A stretch of 31,003 bases of DNA from a virus (IMGVR_UViG_3300009431_000398:1-31003); one strand, 5' to 3'. Shown: positions 9,260 to 27,401, counted from the stretch's first letter. Translations and numbers: made by a program. Notes: generated by a model from the letters alone, not told the origin.

Positions 9260-9708
9260 GGCGCGGCATCCGGAAGTCGGCGGTTGTACTCGAAGCCGTA
9301 GAGGAGGTCGTTGAAAACCCACTCCGCGCTTGTATGCAGCACCTGGGAGGACCCCTTGTAGACGGGACGCACCCACAGCAACGGCTGGTTGGTCCTGCTC
9401 AGAAACATGCCGGTCACAGCCTCCTCATGCTCGTAGGCCAGGAACTGGGAGAAGCGCTCGGCCTTGCCCAGTCGGTACGCGATACGCACCCGAACCAGGG
9501 CATCCACCCGAATCACCGTCCCAGGGCGTCCACGCATCTTCCCCGAGTCGGTCTCGGAGATGGTCACGTTGAACCCCATGTGCTGCTTAGTCGAGGGAGC
9601 CCTGGTCACATCCAGAATCTCCTTGACCTCGACCACGCCAGGGCAGGCCGCCTCGATGCGGTCTGCCAGCGTCCGGTGAAGCTCGGTCTTGGTCGTCGTG
9701 CTCATCAT
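9256..9708 (-). CDS. Neck protein, tail-terminator-like candidate
   Basis: A 150-residue protein starting MMSTTTKTELHRTLADRIEA. Its ATG at 9708 overlaps the upstream TGA (ATGA); the second Met at 9705 is an equally possible start. Reading further upstream to 9819 would only shadow the connector gene. An N-terminal helix is followed by strands (VVEVKEILDVT, HMGFNVTISETD, VIRVDALVRVRIAYRLG), a helix FSQFLAYEHEEAVTGMFL, then LLWVRPVYKGSSQVLH. This alpha-beta pattern and the position fit tail terminator (gpU-like) or tail-completion proteins, which cap the tube and join it to the head. The call is tentative and rests on pattern and order. Confidence 0.65.
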   Translation of the reverse strand: MMSTTTKTELHRTLADRIEAACPGVVEVKEILDVTRAPSTKQHMGFNVTISETDSGKMRGRPGTVIRVDALVRVRIAYRLGKAERFSQFLAYEHEEAVTGMFLSRTNQPLLWVRPVYKGSSQVLHTSAEWVFNDLLYGFEYNRRLPDAAP

Positions 9709-10445
9709 TCCCACCCGGAGACGTTGGTGAACAGGACGGGTGTGCCACCCTGGTCCTGCTCCTCTTCGGAGGGCTCTGCGTCCTCGTCGAAATCGTAGGT
9801 GAAGCGGATATCGCCCCACCCATCCGAGTAGCTCCTCTGGTACTGGTCGGCCAGCTTCATGTACTTCCCGTCCGAGGAGGAGGACGCGGCGTAGTCCCGG
9901 AACACCAGCGCCAGCGTCAGGTCGAGGTGGACGCCGTACAAGGACCCAGGAGACAGGATGAGGTTGGGCCGCCTACCGTCCTCCAGGAGCTTGAGCTGGA
10001 TACGGTTCCATGCCGCGTCCAGGTACTGCTGCAGGTTCGCCTGGTCGCTGGAGACCCACTCCCGCAACTCGGTGTGAACCCTCAGCAGGTCATCCTCGGT
10101 CACCACCGGGTACAGCTTACGCAGTACCAGGGCGGCGTCACGGGAGAAGCCCACGGGCTTGCCGTCGATGGTCAGGAACCACTCCTCGAACCACAGCTCC
10201 GATAACTCCTCATCCTGGGTCAACGCGACGGACACCACGTGCGTGGCGATACCGTTCACGATGGTCACGGCAGAGGCGTCGAGGAGCTTCTCCCCCGACC
10301 CATTCTTGAGGGTCAGCGTCCCAGCGGTGGGCACGACCAGTTTCCCGCTGCGCCACGCAGGGGCCTCCAGCGTCTGTTCCTTCCCTCGCTCAATGAGGTC
10401 AGGAACAGGCCCGGTACGGAAGCTGTAGTCAGTCCCCTGAGGCAC
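9705..10445 (-). CDS. Head-tail connector/adaptor candidate
   Basis: A 246-residue protein. It starts with GTG at 10445 after AGGAGGGCATC, an excellent ribosome site. The N-terminus MPQGTDYSFRTGPVPD leads to strands (LVVPTAGTLTLKNGSG), a central domain (LTIDGKPVGFSRDAALVLRK), then helices DLLRVHTELREWVSSDQANL and AAWNRIQLKLLEDGRRP, and LDLTLALVFRDYAASSSSDG. The helical part resembles head-tail connector (gp6/gp15-type) proteins with D-L...L-R, and the C-terminus is very acidic (DFDEDAEPSEEEQDQ). It begins the neck and tail run. Its first 133 bases lie inside the end of the upstream gene in another frame, which is unusual for this compact genome. Confidence 0.7.
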   Translation of the reverse strand: MPQGTDYSFRTGPVPDLIERGKEQTLEAPAWRSGKLVVPTAGTLTLKNGSGEKLLDASAVTIVNGIATHVVSVALTQDEELSELWFEEWFLTIDGKPVGFSRDAALVLRKLYPVVTEDDLLRVHTELREWVSSDQANLQQYLDAAWNRIQLKLLEDGRRPNLILSPGSLYGVHLDLTLALVFRDYAASSSSDGKYMKLADQYQRSYSDGWGDIRFTYDFDEDAEPSEEEQDQGGTPVLFTNVSGWE

Positions 10446-10969
10446 GATGCCCTCCTATCCTCGCAGCCTTGACCGCAGAGCAAGCCCAGCAGCGCCCCAC
10501 CAGTGCCCCCGATGTACGCGGCGATGGGGGCGCCGCCCCCGTCATCGGTGGAGCCGTCGCCCCGGCGTGGCGTGGGCAGCACTTCCTCCACCGCTTCCGC
10601 CTTTTCGGGCTTGAAGTTGGGGTCCGGTGGCGCCTTGCCATGTGCTGGTTCAGGCCGCACGTCGCCACCTGGCCGCTCCGTCTGCTTTACGGGTGCGAGG
10701 AAGCACACGCCATCCGGGAGTTGCTGGTACGTCTTTTGGCGTAGCTCGTGTAGCTTCTCGGCACCGGGCGGGACACAGAATCCCGCGGTCGTGTCTTGCA
10801 CACACTGCCCATCCGCGTACAGTTCCGCGTGCTCCGTGAAGGCGACGATACAACCGCCAGAATCGGTGTAGAGGGTGCCGTCCTCATAGACGGCGACGAA
10901 CCACTTGGTGTTCTGCTGCGCCTGCGCCAGCATCGGCAGCGCGAGAATCAGAACCAGGATGTAGCGCAT
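10313..10969 (-). CDS. Exported protein with signal peptide and Gly-rich hydrophobic segment
   Basis: A 218-residue protein with an AGGAGGTCGTC ribosome site. It has a clear Sec signal peptide (MRYILVLILALPMLAQA, predicted cut after AQA). The mature part contains Cys at 40, 56, 65 and 89, an even number that could form disulfides outside the cytoplasm. A Pro/Glu-rich linker (100-145) is followed by a Gly-rich hydrophobic segment (APIAAYIGGTGGALLGLL, about 147-164), possibly a membrane anchor. The last ~44 residues overlap the connector gene in another frame and are Arg-rich and low in information, so the natural end may be nearer residue 175 if a frameshift is present. The role is unknown: spanin-like, cell-surface or moron functions are all possible. 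Confidence 0.6.
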   Translation of the reverse strand: MRYILVLILALPMLAQAQQNTKWFVAVYEDGTLYTDSGGCIVAFTEHAELYADGQCVQDTTAGFCVPPGAEKLHELRQKTYQQLPDGVCFLAPVKQTERPGGDVRPEPAHGKAPPDPNFKPEKAEAVEEVLPTPRRGDGSTDDGGGAPIAAYIGGTGGALLGLLCGQGCEDRRASCLRGLTTASVPGLFLTSLSEGRNRRWRPLRGAAGNWSCPPLGR

Positions 10970-10978
10970 GACGACCTC

Positions 10979-12343
10979 CTAGTCGTGGGGCGCGTTGATG
11001 GTGATCAGGGAGACATCGAATTCCGCAGTGTCCCCGGCCAGGATGTATGTACGTAGGATGAAGTTGGAGTCGAAGGCGATGTTGCGGCACCAACTCTCAG
11101 CATTGCGCGCGACCTCGTTCCAGGTGCCCCCTGGCGTAACAGCCAGGGTGTATGCGCCGTAGGTATCACGGGTAAATAGGACGCTATGAGCTTGCCCTTC
11201 TAGCGTCCATGTGTTGCTTTGGAAGTAATAGCCGCCGTCCCGAACGATCAGATTCCGAACCAGCCCTCCTCCCGTGAGGAATACGTAGGTGGCTTCATTA
11301 CCCGCACCGCCCTCGTTGTCGTCAGTGAGCCCGAAATAGATGTAAGTATCGTCATTGTTGGACAGGTTCGTGTCATCGAACGTTACCAAAACGGCGAACT
11401 GCCCCTCACCACAGAGCGCGTAATCCGCCGACAACTCCAACTTGACTAGGTGGTTTTCCAGACCACCCGAATCGTTGGTCCGTGAAAAGGTGAATCCGCT
11501 CGACGTCCGCTGAAATACGTCTGTCCCGCCGGGAGGGGGGTCCCAATCTCCGAAGCCAGAACCACCATATACGAACCCCGTGACAGGGTCTGTGCCTCCG
11601 CCCTCCACGTAGTAATCGTAAGTCGTCCCCGTGAAGTCTACGCGGTAGAGGCCGTCACCCCCGCCTCCTCCAGTGAAGGCGTCGAAAGCGGCGAGACACC
11701 CATCTGCCTCGGTCTCACCCGCGCAGTTGCCGCTCGGCACGGTCACCAGGTCCACGTCGTCGGCGTCCACCCCGGCGAAGTTGCCGCCATCGAGGGTGGG
11801 GGAGTCGCCCGTGCCCACGGCCTGCGCTCCAGACCCGGCCATGGTGTTGACGGCTGCGTGGCCCGTGCCGTCGCTCGATATGTGCGTGTGCGCCGCCTTC
11901 GCCTCAGCCGCGGTGACTGCGCTCGCGCCTCCCGTGTCGAGTCCTTGGTCCGTCCCCTGGGTATGAGCCAGCGCAGTGTTGCTCGCCACATCGGCATGGT
12001 CGGACCCGTCGCCCGTGCGGTGCGTGTCACTCAGCGCCACGTTCGCATGGTCCGCCCCGTTGCCGGTCACATGCGTGGAGTTCGCATCCACCTCGTTCCA
12101 CGCTGCACCGTCGTAGCAGCGGCGTAGGTCGCTGGTGGTGTTGTAATAGCACTGCCCCTCACGCGCAGTGCCCGTCCCATCGCCGCTCGCATCCCAGTGG
12201 TTCGCTTGGATGTACGTGAGCGCAGCCGCGTCGCTCGCGTGGTTCCCCAGCTCGTACTCAGGCGTGACGTCCGCACGCGCGAACAGCACGCATGCCAGCA
12301 GCGCCACCGCAGCGAACGCCAGCCTCGTCGTCCAGTTCCGCAT
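10979..12343 (-). CDS. Exported fibre-like protein with DGSDH repeats
   Basis: The ATG at 12343 has GAGGTGG upstream and gives a standard signal peptide (MRNWTTR, then LAFAAVALLACVLFARA). An ATG at 12355 has no ribosome site, although it overlaps the upstream TGA. The protein has 454 residues. Mature residues ~60-90 contain the fibre-type motif G-Q-C-Y-Y-N-T-T...YDGAAW. Then come three imperfect repeats with T-H-x-T/S-x-D/N-G-x-x-H-A-x-V, typical of phage fibre shafts, an Ala/Gly-rich stretch, a Gly-rich hinge (FTGGGGGDG), and a beta-rich C-terminal domain resembling a lectin-like jelly roll. A fibre-like protein carrying a signal peptide is odd, since virion proteins are not exported. It could be a cell-surface protein made during infection. 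Confidence 0.75.
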   Translation of the reverse strand: MRNWTTRLAFAAVALLACVLFARADVTPEYELGNHASDAAALTYIQANHWDASGDGTGTAREGQCYYNTTSDLRRCYDGAAWNEVDANSTHVTGNGADHANVALSDTHRTGDGSDHADVASNTALAHTQGTDQGLDTGGASAVTAAEAKAAHTHISSDGTGHAAVNTMAGSGAQAVGTGDSPTLDGGNFAGVDADDVDLVTVPSGNCAGETEADGCLAAFDAFTGGGGGDGLYRVDFTGTTYDYYVEGGGTDPVTGFVYGGSGFGDWDPPPGGTDVFQRTSSGFTFSRTNDSGGLENHLVKLELSADYALCGEGQFAVLVTFDDTNLSNNDDTYIYFGLTDDNEGGAGNEATYVFLTGGGLVRNLIVRDGGYYFQSNTWTLEGQAHSVLFTRDTYGAYTLAVTPGGTWNEVARNAESWCRNIAFDSNFILRTYILAGDTAEFDVSLITINAPHD

Positions 12344-12351
12344 CTTCCACC

Positions 12352-12588
12352 TCATCCAGACACCAGGTCCCAGGTCGTCAGCGCGCCAGGACGCGGCATA
12401 TACCGCTTATTGTTCGTGGTATCGAAGTACGGGCGCCCAGCAGTGCCTGCACCGCTCGGCGGTCCCACACCCGAATCCTCATCCACCGCGGTCGCCAGGT
12501 CGGCACTGTCCACCGTGCCATCGGCGTTGCCATCGTAGTCAGCGACCTTCATGCCGCCGACGCCGACGATGCCCTTGTTCCCAGCCAC
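12352..12588 (-). CDS. Small protein with dockerin/EF-hand-like calcium loop
   Basis: A 78-residue protein starting with GTG at 12588 after AGGAGGTGTAGC. Residues about 17-35 read DYDGNADGTVDSADLATAV, which matches the D-x-N-x-D-G-x-V-x-x-x-D-L calcium-loop pattern of type I dockerins and EF hands. Only one copy is present, whereas full dockerins carry two. The C-terminal half contains GRPYFDTTNNKRYM and TTWDLVSG, a motif also seen in the neighbouring fibre-like protein (CYYNTT...YDGAAW), common in phage fibre and collar proteins. The gene ends in a TGA overlapping the possible upstream ATG of the exported protein. A metal-stabilised structural or adaptor role is inferred. Confidence 0.65.
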   Translation of the reverse strand: MAGNKGIVGVGGMKVADYDGNADGTVDSADLATAVDEDSGVGPPSGAGTAGRPYFDTTNNKRYMPRPGALTTWDLVSG

Positions 12589-12598
12589 GCTACACCTC

Positions 12599-12880
12599 CT
12601 AGCTGGCCTTGAACGGAATGGTGGCCGCTCCTGCCGCCGTGAGCTTCACGTTGAAGAGGAGCCGCTCCCCCTTGCCCATGAAATGCTCCCAGTAGGCCCC
12701 AGCAAGGTTGGGGTACTCGACCTGGTCACCACCCGGCGTCTCCAGCCTCACGGTGAACGCCGACGCGCAGTAGCACACCAGGTACTCAACCCCGCGTAGC
12801 TCGAAATCGGCCGCCTGGTATGCACCAGTCGCGGCGACGTTGATGCTCTGCGGCCCATGCTTGTTGAGAGGGTCAGCCAC
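12599..12880 (-). CDS. Small structural-region protein, unknown
   Basis: A 93-residue protein starting with GTG at 12880 (GGGGTGAGCC upstream) and beginning MADPLNKHGPQSINVAATG. It is beta-rich: YLVCYCASAFTVRLETPGG, VEYPNLAGAYWEHF and ERLLFNVKLTAAGAATIPF. The compact beta pattern would suit a head decoration or surface protein, and it sits downstream of the capsid module between two similarly small genes. No family is recognised, and the function is inferred from context only. Confidence 0.65.
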   Translation of the reverse strand: MADPLNKHGPQSINVAATGAYQAADFELRGVEYLVCYCASAFTVRLETPGGDQVEYPNLAGAYWEHFMGKGERLLFNVKLTAAGAATIPFKAS

Positions 12881-12891
12881 GGCTCACCCCC

Positions 12892-13167
12892 CTACACACC
12901 AGCGATGGCGAGCCAGGTGCCAGCGCCGTCCTGGGAGACGTACATCCTCGAGCCCGCTGCACCATCCTTGCGGATGTACAGCGACCCCTTGGGCGCGCTG
13001 TGCGTCGGAGCCCCGTAGGCTGAGTCCAGCAGCGGAGCGGACTCCATCGCCCCATTCTTGTGGTAGTTCGCGCCCACGATACCGAGGGAGCAGACCGCCA
13101 CAGGCTTCTGCAGGTTGAAGGGCCGCAGATGGTTCGAGGGCTTGAGGGTGAGCTTGGTGTACGGCAT
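12892..13167 (-). CDS. Small structural/decoration-like protein
   Basis: A 91-residue protein starting MPYTKLTLKPSNHLRPF. Strong GAGGAG ribosome site, but that site lies in the 3' arm of a 5-bp hairpin (TCCTC/GAGGA, 13172-13185) that could limit initiation. The C-terminal half carries KGSLYIRKDGAAGSRMYVSQ and DGAGTWLAIAG, a repeated strand-turn pattern with paired DG turns common in phage structural surface proteins. It probably decorates the capsid or belongs to the neck. The 79 bases upstream contain no gene. Confidence 0.7.
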   Translation of the reverse strand: MPYTKLTLKPSNHLRPFNLQKPVAVCSLGIVGANYHKNGAMESAPLLDSAYGAPTHSAPKGSLYIRKDGAAGSRMYVSQDGAGTWLAIAGV

Positions 13168-13171
13168 CGGC

Positions 13172-13185
13172 TCCTCCGTGGAGGA
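13172..13185 (-). promoter_or_regulatory. Hairpin overlapping the ribosome site of the 12892-13167 gene
   Basis: On the minus strand TCCTC-CACG-GAGGA forms a 5-bp stem with a 4-base loop, and its 3' arm is the ribosome-binding sequence 4-5 bases from the ATG. It could dampen or time translation of the small downstream protein. It is a short stem, so chance is possible. Confidence 0.35.
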
Positions 13186-13245
13186 ACGGCTCGGCGGCTT
13201 TCAGCCCCGAACGGATGCCCGTACCCCTGGGGGTGCGGACAGCTG

Positions 13246-13422
13246 TTAGGTCTTCTGGCGCGTCACCGCCCCCTTGTCTGCCCGACGCGCCACACGTCGG
13301 GCCAGCTTGCGGGCGTCCTCTCGGGACATGCCCTGGTGCTTCTGTAGCTTGGCGGCGAACCGCTCGGTCGCCTCACGGCGGCCAGGCTTCTCGCCGGACT
13401 CGATTCGGTTGCTGGAGGCCAT
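13246..13422 (-). CDS. Small basic helical protein, unknown (58 residues)
   Basis: The ATG at 13422 abuts the TAG of the upstream 311-residue gene (TAGATG), and the frame runs to TAA at 13248-13246. The protein (58 residues) starts MASSNRIESGEKPGRREATE, continues RFAAKLQKHQGMSREDARKL, and ends with basic residues. It is highly charged, predicted helical, and rich in Arg and Lys. Immediate coupling to the upstream gene and normal codon composition support it as real. A small basic protein beside capsid genes could bind DNA or the capsid interior, but that is a guess. Confidence 0.6.
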   Translation of the reverse strand: MASSNRIESGEKPGRREATERFAAKLQKHQGMSREDARKLARRVARRADKGAVTRQKT

Positions 13423-14358
13423 CTACTTGCTGGCCCCCTTCGCCTTCGGCTTCGGCTTGCGCGCCTTGACCTTGGGCTTCGGCTCGGGTTCAGGGTCGCT
13501 GCCCCCGCGGTTCGAAAGGTCCACCTCATCGGCATCCGCATCCATGGCGAGGGAAACCCCCTCGGGCACTTCCACGCCCGCCGCAGGCTGGGCCTTGGCG
13601 TCCAGCGCCGCGACCATCTCATCCTTCACCGACGACGTCCCCTTGGCCGCCTGCTCGGCAAAGATGCGGACCTCCTCGATGGCCTGCTCCACCGACTCCC
13701 CGCGCATCATCGCCAGGACGCGCCGCTGCTCTCGCAGGCGAGCCTCCAGCAGAGTGTTGCGCGGGTCCTTGAACAGGTCCGACTGCAGGCGATGGACGGC
13801 GCTCTCCCTCTTCTCGATGAGGGTGTCCTTGATGAGCGGGTCCAACGGCGCAACCAGACGATGCTCGACTAGGTGGTCCACGAACGTGCGGAAGGCCCGG
13901 TCATCCCGAATCCACTTCCGCACGATGTTGCCGACCACGTGGGGACGCTCGAACACGGTGCGGTAGTGGTAGCCGCCTCCCTGCACGGCGTACCGTCGCA
14001 GGTAGTACCCGCCCTCGAAGCGCTTCCCGTGGATGGTGCAGCTGAACCCCTGGAGACGGTCGTCGTCCTGGTAGATGATGCTCCACCCCCGACGCCGCAG
14101 GTCCGCTTCAGCCCTGGTCAGGTCACCAAACGAGTCCACGCCGCCCAGTCCGGGCTCGTGGTGGAAGCGTCCGAGCACAGGGTAGAAGCCCAGGTCCTCG
14201 GTGAAGTTCCACCGGTTCGGGTGGTGCGTCAGCTCGAAAGGAGCATTGGGCTGTGCGCCCCGCTTGGGCAACCCTCCCTGCTTGGCAGGACCACGGGTCA
14301 CCACGGTCTCTGCCTTGGGCACAGGGTTCCTCGGGTTGTGGGTCATCAAGTCGGTCAT
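13423..14358 (-). CDS. Head-region protein with charged Pro/Lys tail, unknown
   Basis: A 311-residue protein with GGACGGAACAG before the ATG. Residues ~1-45 are basic and low complexity. Residues 45-190 form the probable folded domain (RWNFTEDLGFYPVLGRFHHE, TRAEADLRRRGWSIIYQDDD, FEGGYYLRRYAVQGGGYHYR). Residues 190-260 are a charged helical coil (ESAVHRLQSDLFKD, LLEARLREQRRVLAMMRG). Residues ~290-311 alternate Glu/Pro and Lys/Pro (SDPEPEPKPKVKARKPKPKA). It sits directly downstream of the major capsid gene. A structural or capsid-internal role is possible. No family is recognised. Confidence 0.75.
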   Translation of the reverse strand: MTDLMTHNPRNPVPKAETVVTRGPAKQGGLPKRGAQPNAPFELTHHPNRWNFTEDLGFYPVLGRFHHEPGLGGVDSFGDLTRAEADLRRRGWSIIYQDDDRLQGFSCTIHGKRFEGGYYLRRYAVQGGGYHYRTVFERPHVVGNIVRKWIRDDRAFRTFVDHLVEHRLVAPLDPLIKDTLIEKRESAVHRLQSDLFKDPRNTLLEARLREQRRVLAMMRGESVEQAIEEVRIFAEQAAKGTSSVKDEMVAALDAKAQPAAGVEVPEGVSLAMDADADEVDLSNRGGSDPEPEPKPKVKARKPKPKAKGASK

Positions 14359-14389
14359 CTGTTCCGTCCTTCCCGCCCTCTGGCGTGGT

Positions 14390-14444
14390 CCCCGCTCATC
14401 GGGGGCGCTCCGGGCTGTGGGTATGTCGAACCGCCGTCAGGCGG
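14390..14444 (-). terminator. Two tandem hairpins after the major capsid gene
   Basis: Directly after the capsid TAG, the minus strand has CCGCC-TGAC-GGCGG (14444-14431), and 27 bases further CCCCG-ATGAG-CGGGG (14404-14390). Both stems are perfect 5-bp GC-rich helices. Neither has a T tract, so they are weak intrinsic terminators at best and may protect the abundant capsid mRNA 3' end or mark a processing site. The 87-base gap holds no gene. Confidence 0.4.
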
Positions 14445-14445
14445 A

Positions 14446-15366
14446 CTACATCTTGCCGATGGTGGTCACGCCCCGCGCATCCTCGTTGATACCGAAGGCC
14501 GCGTAGTAGTTCCCGACCACCTTGGTCAGGCCGCCAGCAGCGCTGCGCTCCAGCTCGACCCAGATGGCCGAGTCGTCCACGGCGACCTGCAGGAACGGGC
14601 TCACCGGAATCTTGCTCTCGTCCAGGGACGGAGTGGCCTCGGCACCGGCGACAGCACCGTAGGCGAACATGCCGCCGTAGTACCCGCTGCCGTCGTCCTG
14701 AACCTGCGAGGAGGTCCAGATGTCCACGCCGTTGAAGCTGCCCTTGTACCCCTGCGACTTCATGGCCAGAAGCTCGGCGGTACTGCCCTGGAACTGGATG
14801 GCCCCGCCTTCACCTCGCAGCGCCGACTGGAACTGGGTGAACTGCTTGGGCTTGGTGACCCAGAAGACCGGGCCGCCCGGAACGTCAGCCTCCTCCAGCG
14901 CGAACTGGGCGTCGTAGAAGGTGTCCACGTCGAAGTCCACAGCGACGCCGCCCGCCGTGGTGCTGAACCCGTCGATGGCCAGAGCGATGAGCTCCGAGGC
15001 TCGCCGGACTGCACCCATCGCGATACCGGCACCCAGGCGAGGGATGTCCACCTTGCCGTTGGAGACCAGCTGCATGAGGTCCGTGGTGTCGTACCGCAGG
15101 GCCTGGCGCGCCACGGTCAGGGTGACGCTTCCGTCGCCCAGCGCCGAGTTGCCGACGTCGGCACCCTCAGCCACGGCAGCCATCTTCTCGTCGAACTGGA
15201 CCTGGGGAATCTTGACAGCCGCGCTGCCAGAGCCCGCCGGGTCGTCCGCGTAGAAGACGGTGTGGCGCAGGTCCACACGGTCCGCGATGAGTTCGAAGAT
15301 TGCCTGGTTGAGGACTGCCGCGACCACGAGGTCAGCGTGGTTGGCATACGAGACTTCGCCCGCCAT
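14446..15366 (-). CDS. Major capsid protein
   Basis: A 306-residue protein. The ATG at 15366 is chosen (MAGEVSYANHADL) because GGGAGAATCGAT precedes it at good spacing. A GTG at 15393 is in frame but lacks a site. It begins with an N-arm/helix (LVVAAVLNQAIFELIADRVD), then AVKIPQVQFDEKMAAVAEGA, the P-domain-like strand GSVTLTVARQALRYDTTDLM, A-domain strands (GGPVFWVTKPKQFTQFQ, FNGVDIWTSSQVQDDG), and ends LTKVVGNYYAAFGINED. Overall pattern, size and place between scaffold and connectors fit an HK97-fold capsid subunit. It has its own leader with a possible promoter and hairpin upstream, which would suit high expression. Confidence 0.9.
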   Translation of the reverse strand: MAGEVSYANHADLVVAAVLNQAIFELIADRVDLRHTVFYADDPAGSGSAAVKIPQVQFDEKMAAVAEGADVGNSALGDGSVTLTVARQALRYDTTDLMQLVSNGKVDIPRLGAGIAMGAVRRASELIALAIDGFSTTAGGVAVDFDVDTFYDAQFALEEADVPGGPVFWVTKPKQFTQFQSALRGEGGAIQFQGSTAELLAMKSQGYKGSFNGVDIWTSSQVQDDGSGYYGGMFAYGAVAGAEATPSLDESKIPVSPFLQVAVDDSAIWVELERSAAGGLTKVVGNYYAAFGINEDARGVTTIGKM

Positions 15367-15373
15367 ATCGATT

Positions 15374-15408
15374 CTCCCGAAAGGGGTTGTCACCTAGCCC
15401 TTTCGAGA
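15374..15408 (-). promoter_or_regulatory. Stem-loop in the major capsid leader, overlapping its ribosome site
   Basis: Arms CGAAAGGG (15378-15385) and CCCTTTCG (15398-15405), plus outer TCT/AGA pairs, form a perfect 8-bp core stem with a 12-base loop on either strand. On the minus strand the 3' arm runs into GGGAG, the ribosome site of the capsid gene. It could act as a translational control, an mRNA 5' stabiliser, or a transcription pause/terminator for the upstream gene. Which of these applies is not decidable by sequence. Confidence 0.5.
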
Positions 15409-15443
15409 TTTACGCGCAACGACGCGAGGGCGACTACATCCTC

Positions 15444-15474
15444 AGGGTAGCCCACGCTGGTAGCAGAATGTCAA
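15444..15474 (-). promoter_or_regulatory. Possible promoter for the major capsid gene
   Basis: On the minus strand a perfect TTGACA (15474-15469) overlaps the TGA stop of the upstream gene and is followed 19 bases later by TACCCT (15449-15444). The -35 match is exact, but the -10 match is partial and the 19-base spacing is long. Position about 80 bases before the capsid ATG, with the leader hairpin between, is sensible for an extra capsid promoter. Confidence 0.35.
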
Positions 15475-16115
15475 GTCCGAACGTGCCGAAGGTACTCGGC
15501 GTAGACCTCTGGACCCATGAATAGGGTGTTGGGGTGGCCTTCAATCATCGCGCAGTCGCGTGGGAGCATGTGGTTGGACATCTGAACCCGCATCCCATCG
15601 AGCGGACCGAACCGCTCCCAGGGCTTCGGCTCGACCGCTCCGTCAAAAGGGTCAGGCTTCCCTCCCAGGATTTCCTTCATCGCGATGAGAGCCACGTCCG
15701 CAACCTCTACCTGGCAGCTCCTGCACTTCCAGGTAGCCCGAGACTCGTTCCGCACCCAATCGTGGGGGCACTGCCGTTGCTTCTTCCGCTGGTGGGCAGA
15801 CGCAGACAGCACCAACCCATCCTTCGCAGCCTGGATGACCTTGTAGACGTCCTCGGTGGGGATGGAGGTTGACAGGCTGGTCATGGACTTGCCTAGGTCC
15901 TGCATCGCCTTGGAGGCATTCCTGGTCGCCTGCTCCAGGTTGCCCATGTTGATGGACATGTCCCCTGCTTCGAGCGGAATCTGAAGCTCTTTGTTGTCCC
16001 CACTGCGCAGGGTCACCACGCCGTCACGCTTGGTCTTGACCACGCGCCCCCTGCGCACGGCCTTCCCCGCTGCGGCGTCCCGCCTCGTGGTCGCCTTCAC
16101 CTTGGTGTGCGGCAT
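15471..16115 (-). CDS. Zinc-finger structural-region protein sharing a module with the tail-tube candidate
   Basis: A 214-residue protein whose ATG overlaps the upstream TGA. Residues 1-23 are basic. Residues 24-58 (GRVVKTKRDGVVTLRSGD, then LEAGDMSINMGN) closely match the N-terminus of the tail-tube candidate at 8028-8528. Residues 60-105 are helical. Residues 116-134 hold C-P-H...C-R-S-C, a likely zinc site (C116, H118, C131, C134). The C-terminal domain (about 165-214) ends NTLFMGPEVYAEYLRHVRT. It lies just upstream of the capsid gene. A morphogenesis or capsid-associated role is likely. No known family with this domain order comes to mind. Confidence 0.75.
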   Translation of the reverse strand: MPHTKVKATTRRDAAAGKAVRRGRVVKTKRDGVVTLRSGDNKELQIPLEAGDMSINMGNLEQATRNASKAMQDLGKSMTSLSTSIPTEDVYKVIQAAKDGLVLSASAHQRKKQRQCPHDWVRNESRATWKCRSCQVEVADVALIAMKEILGGKPDPFDGAVEPKPWERFGPLDGMRVQMSNHMLPRDCAMIEGHPNTLFMGPEVYAEYLRHVRT

Positions 16116-16754: not shown

Positions 16755-16958
16755 CTACCTCGGTGTGAACATCCAGCGCAAGAGAGCAAGCGGGTACGGG
16801 CCTTCGTACTGGAACACCCACCCGTTGAACGGTAACCAGTCCATGACCCACGACCAGAATCCGAACAGGCAGGAGCAGTAGGGGTCAGTGCAGAAACGCA
16901 TCGGCAGGCCGTAGATGATGACCTTATCCGCTTGCCCGTGGCATCGTGGACAGCGCAT
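16755..16958 (-). CDS. Small zinc-ribbon protein with hydrophobic C-terminal half
   Basis: Start at ATG 16958, directly overlapping the scaffold TGA (TGATG); a GTG at 16961 would add one residue. The 67-residue protein begins MRCPRCHGQADKVIIYG, with a second Cys set in RFCTDPYCSCLFG, so two CxxC-type knuckles could bind one zinc. The second half is Trp/Phe/Leu-rich (FWSWVMDWLPFNGWVFQYEG, PLALLRWMF), which could associate with membrane or pack against a partner. Its role is unknown. It is coupled to the scaffold and followed by a strong hairpin. Confidence 0.65.
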   Translation of the reverse strand: MRCPRCHGQADKVIIYGLPMRFCTDPYCSCLFGFWSWVMDWLPFNGWVFQYEGPYPLALLRWMFTPR

Positions 16959-17752
16959 CACCGCCGGTACTTGTCCAGCAGGCCTGACTCCTTGAACTCC
17001 TTGCGGCTCATCCTGGCGATGTTGACGGGGTCCAGGCTGTCGCCCACGTTGGGGGTGCGGGTTACGCCCTCGTTACCGGGGGTCTTGCGCTTCTTCTTCT
17101 TGCCCTTGCCCTTGTCCTTGTCGTCGTCCCCCCCCTTGCCCTTTTTCTTGTCCTTGTCGTCCGACTCGTCGTCGTCATCGTCGTCATCGTCGTCCGACTC
17201 AGAGATGAAGGGTGACAGGTACTTCGCCTCGCCCTTCTCGGCCGCCTTCACCTGACCCGCCAGGAAGTCCTTGAACGACTTGGCCCCGTCGTCCTTGTCC
17301 TTCTGCTTGCGGTACTTGTTCACCAGCAGGTCCTGGGCGTCCTCATCGTCGATACCCGCGCCGAGCATGGCCTTGTCCCGCTTGTACCTGACTTGCTGCT
17401 GCTCCAGCTTGGTCTTGTACTCGTCCCGCTCCTGCTTGTACCGCTTGGCGTCCTTCGCCTGAGTCTTGACCACGTCGAAGTCGTCGAACCCGTCCATCTG
17501 GCCCTTGAGTTGGTCCCGCTCCTGCTGGGTCTCCTGAAGCCGTTGCTTGTACCCGCTCGCAGCTGCGGCCAGCTTGGAGTTGTCGTCGTTGACCCTGGTG
17601 AGCTGCGCCAGGGCCTCCTTCTTCTTGCCTATCTCCTCGTTCAACCGCGACCGAGGAACCATGTCCCCGCTGTCGCTGCCCCCGCCGTTTCCACCGCCCT
17701 CGCCACCATCAGCCTGATACACCGGACCCCTCGGCCCATACTTTCCGAACAT
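16958..17752 (-). CDS. Scaffolding protein
   Basis: A 264-residue protein with AGGAGGTCGAGG before the ATG, between portal and capsid genes. The N-terminus is Gly-rich (about 15-30). Residues ~35-125 form a long coiled coil (RLNEEIGKKKEALAQLTRVN, RLQETQQERDQLKGQ). Residues 130-180 are helical. A run of Asp (187-195) is followed by Lys/Gly/Asp repeats to ~223, and the end is basic helical (NIARMSRKEFKESGLLDKYR), as in scaffolds whose C-terminal helix binds the capsid. It directs procapsid assembly and is lost before packaging. The Asp-run/Lys-run pair is an unusual charge-blocked linker, and its GAY-triplet coding is repeat-prone. Confidence 0.85.
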   Translation of the reverse strand: MFGKYGPRGPVYQADGGEGGGNGGGSDSGDMVPRSRLNEEIGKKKEALAQLTRVNDDNSKLAAAASGYKQRLQETQQERDQLKGQMDGFDDFDVVKTQAKDAKRYKQERDEYKTKLEQQQVRYKRDKAMLGAGIDDEDAQDLLVNKYRKQKDKDDGAKSFKDFLAGQVKAAEKGEAKYLSPFISESDDDDDDDDDESDDKDKKKGKGGDDDKDKGKGKKKKRKTPGNEGVTRTPNVGDSLDPVNIARMSRKEFKESGLLDKYRR

Positions 17753-24328: not shown

Positions 24329-24761
24329 CATCGCCTCCCGGCGCGTTGCATCTCTGGCACCTCACCGATCTCGCTGCCCCGGGTCTGTCGAGCGTTTCGA
24401 CATCAGGTGCCCAACCAGTCCCGCCACAAGCGCCGCAGCGCTGGGAATCGACAGCAGGACCGCAGCGATGATCGTTACCGCCATCACTTGCTCTGCCACT
24501 GGCATTCGTCTCCTCCGCTTCGTAGTAGTCCCGATACCACCTCGCGCACGACAGGCACTCCAGCGGGTAGTTGCCGCCGTCCTTCACGGGCTTGCGTCTA
24601 CACCCCTCGCAGCTGTCGCGGGCGTCCCATAGGGCCAGGAGGGCGGCTCGCTTCCCCTTGACATCGGGCGCCCCAAGCGATGACCATAGCGTTCGTTCGG
24701 CTCGTCGGGTTTCACCAATCAGCGCATCCACCGCCGCCTCGATCTCGGATCTACTCGGCAT
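24321..24761 (-). CDS. Protein with two zinc-knuckle sets, unknown
   Basis: Start ATG 24761 (MPSRSEIEAAVDALIGETRR) has GAGGG upstream and overlaps the previous gene by 11 bases, giving 146 residues. The N-terminal half is helical. The second half carries two cysteine sets: CEGCRRKP...LECLSCARWY, and RCGACGGTGW...RCQRC, the latter with a half DnaJ-type CxxCGGTG motif. The linker around residues 85-105 is Gly/Asn/Asp-rich. It probably binds two zincs. No family with this arrangement is recognised. Confidence 0.65.
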   Translation of the reverse strand: MPSRSEIEAAVDALIGETRRAERTLWSSLGAPDVKGKRAALLALWDARDSCEGCRRKPVKDGGNYPLECLSCARWYRDYYEAEETNASGRASDGGNDHRCGPAVDSQRCGACGGTGWAPDVETLDRPGAARSVRCQRCNAPGGDDG

Positions 24762-24933
24762 CGTCTTCGCCCTCTTCGCACTCACACGTTCCGTAGTTTT
24801 GCTCGATCACGTCGAGAACTCGGTCTCCTCCAGCGACAAGAGTCCACCCCAGGAAGAGCAGCACGAACCATCCTGGAGGGGTCACAATCAGCAATGCACA
24901 AACGAAGGCGATGCTCTCTACAACCGACTTCAT
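24751..24933 (-). CDS. Small membrane protein (holin-like candidate)
   Basis: Start ATG 24933, since GGGAGAA lies six bases upstream; the frame is open further to 25032 but without a site. The 60-residue protein has two hydrophobic segments: SIAFVCALLIVT (about 7-18), then PGWFVLLFLGWTLVAGG (about 20-36), and an acidic Cys-containing C-terminus (ECEEGEDDAE). The size and two close segments are compatible with a small holin, but no endolysin gene is nearby, so membrane localisation is all that can be supported. Confidence 0.6.
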   Translation of the reverse strand: MKSVVESIAFVCALLIVTPPGWFVLLFLGWTLVAGGDRVLDVIEQNYGTCECEEGEDDAE

Positions 24934-26194: not shown

Positions 26195-26380
26195 CTACCA
26201 CTCCCAGTCGTTGCGATGCCGATTGCGGTAAGGCCCGAACTCCCACTCATCGCGAGCATCCCACTCCTCATCCAACCGCTCCTGCTCTTTCCGCATACAG
26301 TCCTCGCAAGCGGGGTCAAGTTCGGACTTCTCCCCACCACAACCAGGGCACCAAGCTGGGTCTTGTCGTCGCGGCATCAT
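26195..26380 (-). CDS. Small zinc-knuckle protein
   Basis: Start ATG at 26380 or its neighbour 26377; 61 residues, overlapping the upstream TGA. MMPRRQDPAWCPGCGGEKSE contains C-P-G-C, followed by ACEDC 14 residues later, together a four-Cys zinc site. The rest is strongly charged helix (RKEQERLDEEWDARDEWEFG) and ends in NRHRNDWEW. Probably a small DNA- or protein-binding accessory. Not recognised. Confidence 0.6.
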   Translation of the reverse strand: MMPRRQDPAWCPGCGGEKSELDPACEDCMRKEQERLDEEWDARDEWEFGPYRNRHRNDWEW

Positions 26381-27198
26381 TCAACCTCCGGGTACTGCCT
26401 CACGGCCCAGTCGGGCCAGAGGTGATGCGCGGGCGAGTGGATGACCCTGCCATCAGGTTCCAGGACCATCTGCTTGGCGAAGACCGCCGTTGACGAGTGA
26501 TACTGCTGGCACTGCCGAATGATGTCCCAGGCCCAATCGAGCTTCATGGAACGACGTCTCGGTCCGGACTCGCACCCGACGATGACCCAATGGATGATGC
26601 CGTCGTCCTCGCTCCACAGCCCTGGTAGCTGCGTCACATCGCGCCCGTCCTGGTCAAGCCGTAGAGGCACGACAATCGACTCCAGCAACGGCTCCAGAGA
26701 CAGGAACCGCACTGAGGGGTTGATACCCATCAGGTAGTCCACAGCCTCGAAGACCTCGTTTTGCGTCGAGGCCGAGTGCCCCACCCAGACATGAGGGTTG
26801 TCCTCCAGCCACCCCTCGGGGAACACCTTGGGGTCGGCCAGGCGCTCGCCTCGCTTGGTCAGAATCTCGAAGGTAAGGTCCGGGCGCTGCTCGATAATGG
26901 CCCGCACCTCGGCGCGCCACTCGTCGGCGGCCTCGTGGCAGAAGTCCATCCAGCTGCCCAGGAAGACCCGCTCGCCCGACTGCCACTTGTACGGACCATG
27001 ATGCGCGGTCCCTACTCTGGCAATGGGCTTGCGGAACGTCGATGGACGGGAGCGCGTGACCCGAGCTGGGTCCTGTCCGTATCGTCGCTTTTCTCGGTAC
27101 ATGTAGCAGAGGCGACACCCCTCGAAGGAGGTCTTGGTGCAGCCCTGCCACGGGTTCCAGGTGTGGTGGGTCCAGTCGATTGCGCTGTCGGTGCCCAT
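26377..27198 (-). CDS. DUF5131 (phage Gp37/Gp68) family protein
   Basis: Start ATG 27198 (MGTDSAIDWTHHTWNPWQGC), overlapping the upstream TGA as TGATG. An ATG at 27207 sits too close to its AAAGG. The 273-residue protein shows the family pattern: W-N-P...G-C-T-K, Cys20-x7-Cys28-x2-Cys31-Tyr, EILTKRGERL, WVGHSASTQ, FLSLEPLLESI, and WVIVGCESGPRRRSM. The three-Cys cluster suggests an iron-sulfur centre like radical-SAM enzymes. The known family function is not established; proposed nucleotide or DNA modification is inference. Sits in the accessory block between small genes. Confidence 0.9.
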   Translation of the reverse strand: MGTDSAIDWTHHTWNPWQGCTKTSFEGCRLCYMYREKRRYGQDPARVTRSRPSTFRKPIARVGTAHHGPYKWQSGERVFLGSWMDFCHEAADEWRAEVRAIIEQRPDLTFEILTKRGERLADPKVFPEGWLEDNPHVWVGHSASTQNEVFEAVDYLMGINPSVRFLSLEPLLESIVVPLRLDQDGRDVTQLPGLWSEDDGIIHWVIVGCESGPRRRSMKLDWAWDIIRQCQQYHSSTAVFAKQMVLEPDGRVIHSPAHHLWPDWAVRQYPEVE

Positions 27199-27401
27199 CA
27201 CCGCCATCCTTTCTTGTCTGCGAACCAGCGCAGAAGATAAAGGTCTAGGTCGCCGTCTCCACGCTCCAGGCCCTCGCCATCTTCTGGCTCAACGATGACC
27301 GACCGGGGAACCCACTCCTCATCCCCGCCGACGTCAACCAGGACGGCTTTCGCCGTCGTGGCCTTGACCTCGTCCACGTCCACTCGTGTCACGTCTCCCA
27401 C
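27198..27401 (-). CDS. Small beta-rich protein with KAVLVD...W-x-P motif
   Basis: GTG at 27401 chosen because GGGAGG stands eight bases upstream and the codon lies just behind the membrane protein gene; 67 residues. VGDVTRVDVDEVKATTAKAV and LVDVGGDEEWVPRSVIVEPE match a common small phage protein pattern (K-A-x-L-V... then W-x-P-x-S), whose function is unknown to me. The end DLDLYLLRWFADKKG is a helix. It overlaps the membrane protein stop by no more than a few bases, so the two are coupled. Confidence 0.6.
   Translation of the reverse strand: MGDVTRVDVDEVKATTAKAVLVDVGGDEEWVPRSVIVEPEDGEGLERGDGDLDLYLLRWFADKKGWR

Follow-up and report, generated by a model that had tools for sequence, protein, structure and literature searches.

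Gene order in the late region

The genes studied here come from an uncultured tailed phage, in which they separate the capsid block from the head-tail adaptor. The window, that is, the whole stretch of DNA that was analysed, spans 31,003 bases and is a complete virus record from IMG/VR. All structural genes are on the minus strand, in the order terminase (with a Terminase_6N match), portal, scaffold-like protein, major capsid protein (MCP), g311, the region of interest, head-tail adaptor, tail genes, tape measure and hub. The MCP (14446–15393) is followed by g311 (13423–14358), which is conserved in synteny and forms the upstream border of a slot. The downstream border is the adaptor (9705–10445), assigned from a weak PHROG 442 match and a conserved syntenic family.

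Between these borders, the first genes encode small proteins. g91 (12892–13167) has a fibre-type C-terminal motif and is conserved in the relative L006; it matches the N-terminus of a 607-residue fibre of the relative L005, and a similar 74-residue protein occurs in L120. The decoration-like g93 (12599–12880) has conserved counterparts in the slots of L005, L089, L090, L091 and others. DOC78 (12352–12588) is a 78-residue cytoplasmic protein. It is followed by FIB454 (10979–12343), a fibre-like protein with repeat similarity to phage fibres, and SP218 (10313–10969), a small Cys-containing protein; both are predicted to be exported. The preliminary description had placed an island of exported proteins between decoration-like genes and the connector; the flanks are g93, g91, g311 and MCP upstream and the adaptor downstream.

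The window MCP matches those of known phages at 28–30% (Pelagibacter phage HTVC112P and Phage DSL-LC06), and by this sequence measure known phages are only distant kin of the window phage. In both, few small genes separate the MCP gene from the tail genes. The pair of FIB454 and SP218 is recorded in one metagenomic record only.

Elsewhere in the window, the scaffold-like protein (16958–17752, minus strand) has a C-terminal part with an extreme Asp run followed by Lys/Gly/Asp blocks. A DUF5131 protein (26377–27207, minus strand; PF07505, E 5e-50) belongs to a family known from phages. A 60-residue ORF (24751–24933, minus strand) contains a strongly hydrophobic segment, has a plausible ribosome-binding site and may encode a small membrane protein.

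Signal peptides of FIB454 and SP218

Signal peptides were scored with a simple rule-based scan for n-, h- and c-regions and an AxA-type cleavage site. FIB454 and SP218 show all of these Sec-export features and rank top among 201 ORFs on both strands, with a score of 3.05 each. The FIB454 signal peptide comprises 24 residues (codons 12272–12343), starts at ATG 12343 with AGGTGG upstream and reads MRNWTTRLAFAAVALLACVLFARA, ahead of DV. That of SP218 comprises 17 residues (codons 10919–10969), starts at ATG 10969 with the Shine-Dalgarno sequence AGGAGG upstream and reads MRYILVLILALPMLAQA, ahead of QQ. The mean Kyte-Doolittle (KD) hydrophobicity of the N-terminal core over 12 residues is 2.92 for FIB454 and 3.01 for SP218; the next-highest value among the 30 other predicted proteins is 2.16, for the capsid protein, which has no n- and c-regions. 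In FIB454, the predicted cleavage site lies between ARA and DV, with a lipobox (LLA before Cys18) as a less likely alternative. FIB454 could thus be a type I secreted protein or, through LLAC at Cys18, a lipoprotein.

Misassigned start codons would remove these signals, a concern raised in the preliminary description that the data do not sustain. The only later FIB454 starts that remove the signal are GTG 12307 and GTG 12289, both without a good Shine-Dalgarno site, and the alternative in-frame ATG 12355, which overlaps the DOC78 stop, yields an identical signal. In frame, third-position GC over the first 20 codons reaches 0.95 in FIB454 and 0.90 in SP218, a bias strong enough to indicate that the signal codons are translated. 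Fortuitous hydrophobic N-termini are a natural suspicion in GC-rich DNA, which yields many spurious ORFs rich in Ala, Leu and Val, and one antisense spurious ORF did score 2.69. That ORF has no Shine-Dalgarno site, however, whereas FIB454 and SP218 are adjacent, are the two best of all ORFs scanned, have fitting Shine-Dalgarno sites and carry the third-position bias through their signal codons; chance is therefore a very unlikely explanation. Export of at least one of the two proteins is predicted with high confidence.

FIB454 is built like a phage fibre

FIB454 consists of 454 residues. The signal peptide (residues 1–24) is followed by a fibre-type motif at residues 63–85 (GQCYYNTTSDLRRCYDGAAWNEV), THRxxDGSDHxDV repeats at ~90–160, a Cys pair at 207/216 and a beta-rich C-terminal domain at ~230–454. 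The protein thus combines two features of phage fibres, the THRxxDGSDHxDV repeat and a YxNTT...YDGxxW motif. Its repeat region matches a 522-residue fibre of L005 at the same position at 37% (E 6e-13, a value of the kind that repeats inflate); this fibre occupies the equivalent slot position and is signal-less. We examined ten loci with the THRxxDGSDHxDV repeat in IMG/VR, one of them on the L005 contig. None of the ten encodes a signal peptide, and their N-terminal hydrophobicity is at most 1.12.

The N-terminal motif has weak matches (E 3e-3 to 5e-3) in putative tail fibres from Pelagibacter and Synechococcus phages, and three of these, inspected at full length, have no signal. Repeats and motif (YxNTTxxxxRxYxGxxW) are common to FIB454 and a set of phage tail or head fibres (for example L005 5626–7194; L136–L144; Pelagibacter phage HTVC034P gp43), none of which, among those inspected, has a signal peptide; mature FIB454, unlike them, has six cysteines. 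The preliminary description had taken the fibre-like motif shared between two of the island's proteins as support for a common exported purpose. The motif is real, but g91, which is not exported, and ordinary tail fibres of phages have it too, and so it provides no argument for a joint exported purpose. We found no report of a head fibre with a signal peptide in the open-access literature.

Searches with FIB454 in IMG/VR, GenBank phages, plasmids, PHROGs, Pfam, NCBIfam and PDB yielded no usable homologue, and no relatives of its C-terminal half were detected. A resemblance of the C-terminal domain to the 263-residue slot proteins of L089 and L091, suspected by eye, gained no support from profile comparison. 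AlphaFold models of FIB454 and SP218 (pLDDT 39–40) were too poor for use.

SP218 and DOC78

SP218 comprises a signal peptide (residues 1–17, with predicted cleavage between AQA and QQ), a four-Cys domain (~18–95), a Pro/charged linker (~95–145) and a Gly-rich, weakly hydrophobic segment with two Cys (~147–166). Its last 44 residues lie in an overlap with the adaptor gene (window 10313–10445, 133 bases) and look unconstrained, and codon bias in the overlap follows the adaptor frame. The functional end of SP218 is probably near 10445; the overlap may be natural or a sequence error. No usable homologues were found in IMG/VR, GenBank phages, plasmids, PHROGs, Pfam, NCBIfam or PDB. Of the earlier portrayal of this protein as carrying a signal, Cys pairs and a possible anchor, the first two elements hold. 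The candidate C-terminal anchor (APIAAYIGGTGGALLGLLC) is marginal, averaging ~1.5 on the KD scale (calculated by hand), and is absent from the list of transmembrane segments.

DOC78 has one dockerin-type Ca loop (DGNADGTVDSADL) and a fibre-type motif. We rejected its assignment as a dockerin: it has a single Ca loop rather than two repeats, no Dockerin_1 match (Pfam gave no match at E≤10) and no export signal. As DOC78 lacks a signal peptide, the exported genes number two, FIB454 and SP218, and not three as first proposed. A separate comparison of DOC78 with the N-terminus of the 522-residue L005 fibre gave no support for homology.

The Ca loop of DOC78 is one of the few features that would fit a surface adhesion unit (dockerin, adhesin) captured from a host, as the preliminary description had suggested; another is the lower third-position GC of the island, described below. 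Yet searches of phages, plasmids, Pfam, NCBIfam and PDB returned no match to such a unit. The single plasmid hit (Shinella, E 0.2) runs antisense to a gene for a transporter. Both the fibre motifs and the repeats are of phage type, such similarity as could be detected for FIB454 is to fibres of phages, and DOC78 has no signal. A host origin is extremely unlikely.

Cysteines and the question of a virion role

Mature FIB454 contains six cysteines (65, 76, 207, 216, 311 and 419), and SP218 contains six ahead of the overlap (40, 56, 65, 89, 165 and 169), so the number in the mature chain is even in both. In FIB454, Cys 65 and Cys 76 replace hydrophobic motif residues of ordinary fibres, as seen by comparing GDLYFNTTTNRLRVYNGSAW (HTVC034P gp43) with GQCYYNTTSDLRRCYDGAAW (FIB454). 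Relative to the pooled structural proteins of the window, cysteine is enriched in FIB454 (P ~0.04) and SP218 (P = 3e-4); leaving out the Cys-containing hub protein gives P = 0.002 and P = 7e-6, respectively. The enrichment points to an oxidising compartment, as supporting rather than decisive evidence, because the choice of background matters.

These data bear on the main rival explanation, that FIB454 is a virion protein carrying a signal. It could be a head or tail decoration fibre whose hydrophobic segment is unused, or it could be exported and oxidised and join particles at lysis, with SP218 as a periplasmic helper. The detectable similarity of FIB454 is indeed to virion fibres, and the equivalent place in relatives is taken by decoration- or fibre-like proteins without signals. 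The complete n-, h- and c-regions of FIB454, the independent and even more canonical signal of its neighbour SP218, and the cysteine enrichment all weigh against this explanation, which we consider rather unlikely.

A variable slot in related phages

Close and middle relatives were collected by profile searches with the MCP, two in IMG/VR and one in bacterial genomes, and duplicates were removed. This yielded 18 distinct relatives with a complete stretch from g311 to the adaptor and MCP identities of 31–74%. As a guide to the host, the capsid search of bacterial genomes retrieved nothing beyond one 4-kb contig; it is assigned to a Chloroflexi MAG but is most likely viral and was binned along.

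The relatives keep the order MCP, g311, a ~50-residue helical protein, the variable slot and the adaptor. The slot is empty in five of the 18 (L094, L007, L100, L102 and L106). A single protein occupies it in L096–L099 and L104 (142 residues) and in L093 (177 residues), and sets of 70, 89 and 263 residues or similar are present in L089, L090 and L091. In L006, it contains a g91-like protein and a membrane-anchored protein; in L005, proteins of 607, 97, 522 and 143 residues. Apart from the membrane-anchored protein of this one relative, filled slots hold decoration- or fibre-like proteins, and a signal-peptide-like start is absent from all 213 candidate ORFs in the slots of relatives (20 slots, including two incomplete ones). 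The preliminary description had proposed asking whether related phages lack the exported genes while keeping the flanking order, and this is so in all 18 distinct relatives. On this comparison of sequences, the slot is variable and dispensable; for this group of uncultured viruses, it would represent an insertion site that follows the capsid block and precedes the adaptor.

The membrane-anchored protein of L006 (L006:6963–7454), directly ahead of the adaptor in the place of SP218, is coiled-coil-like with an N-terminal transmembrane segment. At its N-terminus, it is similar to a membrane protein encoded on the L005 contig, downstream of the hub gene there (L128:495–917, E 8e-5).

Composition and transcription

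Third-position GC is 0.73 in DOC78, 0.68 in the C-terminal half of FIB454 and 0.77 in SP218, compared with 0.84–0.90 in core genes; the N-terminal half of FIB454 is at 0.84. Slot genes of relatives show a partial dip only. The low values suggest, without proving it, a recent acquisition of DOC78, SP218 and the C-terminal half of FIB454.

Classical morons are transcribed from a promoter of their own and carry their own terminator. Within 9500–16000, we detected neither a sigma-70-like promoter nor an intrinsic terminator; a promoter of another type may be present. The moron label introduced in the preliminary description therefore fits in part: the pair is absent from relatives that keep the flanks and deviates in composition, but no recognisable promoter or terminator of its own was found. 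With the variable slot and the absence of signals from the slot proteins of relatives, a putative cell-surface module expressed with the late genes is nevertheless the best-fitting of the readings then offered.

Comparison with lysis genes and exported phage proteins

Exported phage proteins encoded in late operons usually serve lysis or are small exclusion lipoproteins. In the relative L131, the genes beyond the tail encode a small transmembrane protein and then a muramidase endolysin matching PF11860 (E 4e-13). Next come a Pro-rich lipoprotein of 47 residues, with the lipobox LIATC, and a holin-like protein. Together, these genes form a compact lysis cassette (L131:10135–11536) whose Pro-rich lipoprotein is Rz1-like. 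An Rz1-type lipoprotein beside the endolysin points to a two-membrane (Gram-negative) host for the phage group. Judged by eye, the window record stops inside the gene that in L131 precedes this cassette, and the window's own lysis genes are not seen because the record ends before that region.

This truncation leaves room for the idea that SP218, or the pair, is spanin-like or lysis-accessory machinery relocated into the structural operon. The L006 slot protein, with its likeness to a membrane protein beyond a hub gene, fits that idea. In addition, SP218 resembles the unimolecular spanin T1 gp11 in having an N-terminal signal and a possible C-terminal membrane segment. Unimolecular spanins are recognized by a lipobox, a C-terminal transmembrane domain and the absence of periplasmic cysteines (PMC6139136). 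SP218 has no lipobox, has several cysteines predicted to be periplasmic (40, 56, 65 and 89) and lies in the wrong genomic place, and we rejected it as a unimolecular spanin. Its C-terminal hydrophobic segment is marginal, the fibre repeat is foreign to known spanins, and the window's own lysis region simply falls outside the record. A relocated lysis function is improbable.

Other parallels are found among exported lipoproteins of phages. The T5 protein Llp, whose gene neighbours that of the receptor-binding protein, acts from the periplasm and stops receptor binding (PMC9586334). By analogy, FIB454 and SP218 would share with T5 Llp and T1 Cor a phage origin, a signal peptide and action at the envelope. 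They differ in build: Llp and Cor are small superinfection-exclusion lipoproteins that bind the phage receptor, whereas FIB454 is a protein of 454 residues that carries fibre repeats, and SP218, lacking a lipobox, is no lipoprotein; in FIB454, LLAC at Cys18 may be a lipobox or merely part of a type I signal. No sequence similarity to Llp or Cor was detected. The Ltp-type lipoproteins of Streptococcus phages are likewise exported and vary among close relatives, and their moron character has been discussed (PMC3952083). Ltp, however, is a prophage-expressed lipoprotein of a Gram-positive host, whereas the window pair is in a late operon with no promoter seen.

A possible secreted effector derived from a fibre

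We propose, tentatively, that FIB454 and SP218 are a moron-like late pair in a variable slot, in which a fibre chassis was given a Sec signal; with its function read broadly, this proposal is plausible although short of probable. We lean slightly towards export combined with a role outside the virion. The more specific idea that a structural fibre turned into a secreted effector, exported to the periplasm or surface with disulphides and working with a second secreted protein, is possible but less than likely.

From the signals, the late-operon position, the fibre chassis and the variable slot described above, we infer the following course of events. The fibre or decoration chassis of FIB454 would have acquired a Sec signal peptide and cysteine pairs, and SP218 would be its small, secreted, Cys-rich companion, maybe tethered by the C-terminal segment. 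Judging from their position in the late operon, both would be transcribed with the structural genes. Sec export, cleavage and oxidation would take place in the periplasm of the Gram-negative host, where the C-terminal domain of FIB454 may bind an envelope or receptor ligand. The late-infection cell and its debris would then cease to bind progeny or competing phages, a superinfection exclusion or receptor masking like that of T5 Llp and T1 Cor in effect. Receptor masking in particular, drawn by analogy, is doubtful.

If the proposal is true, phages would redeploy adhesion domains of the virion as effectors in the envelope, and the pair would allow the masking of receptors by copies of a phage's own fibres to be tested directly.
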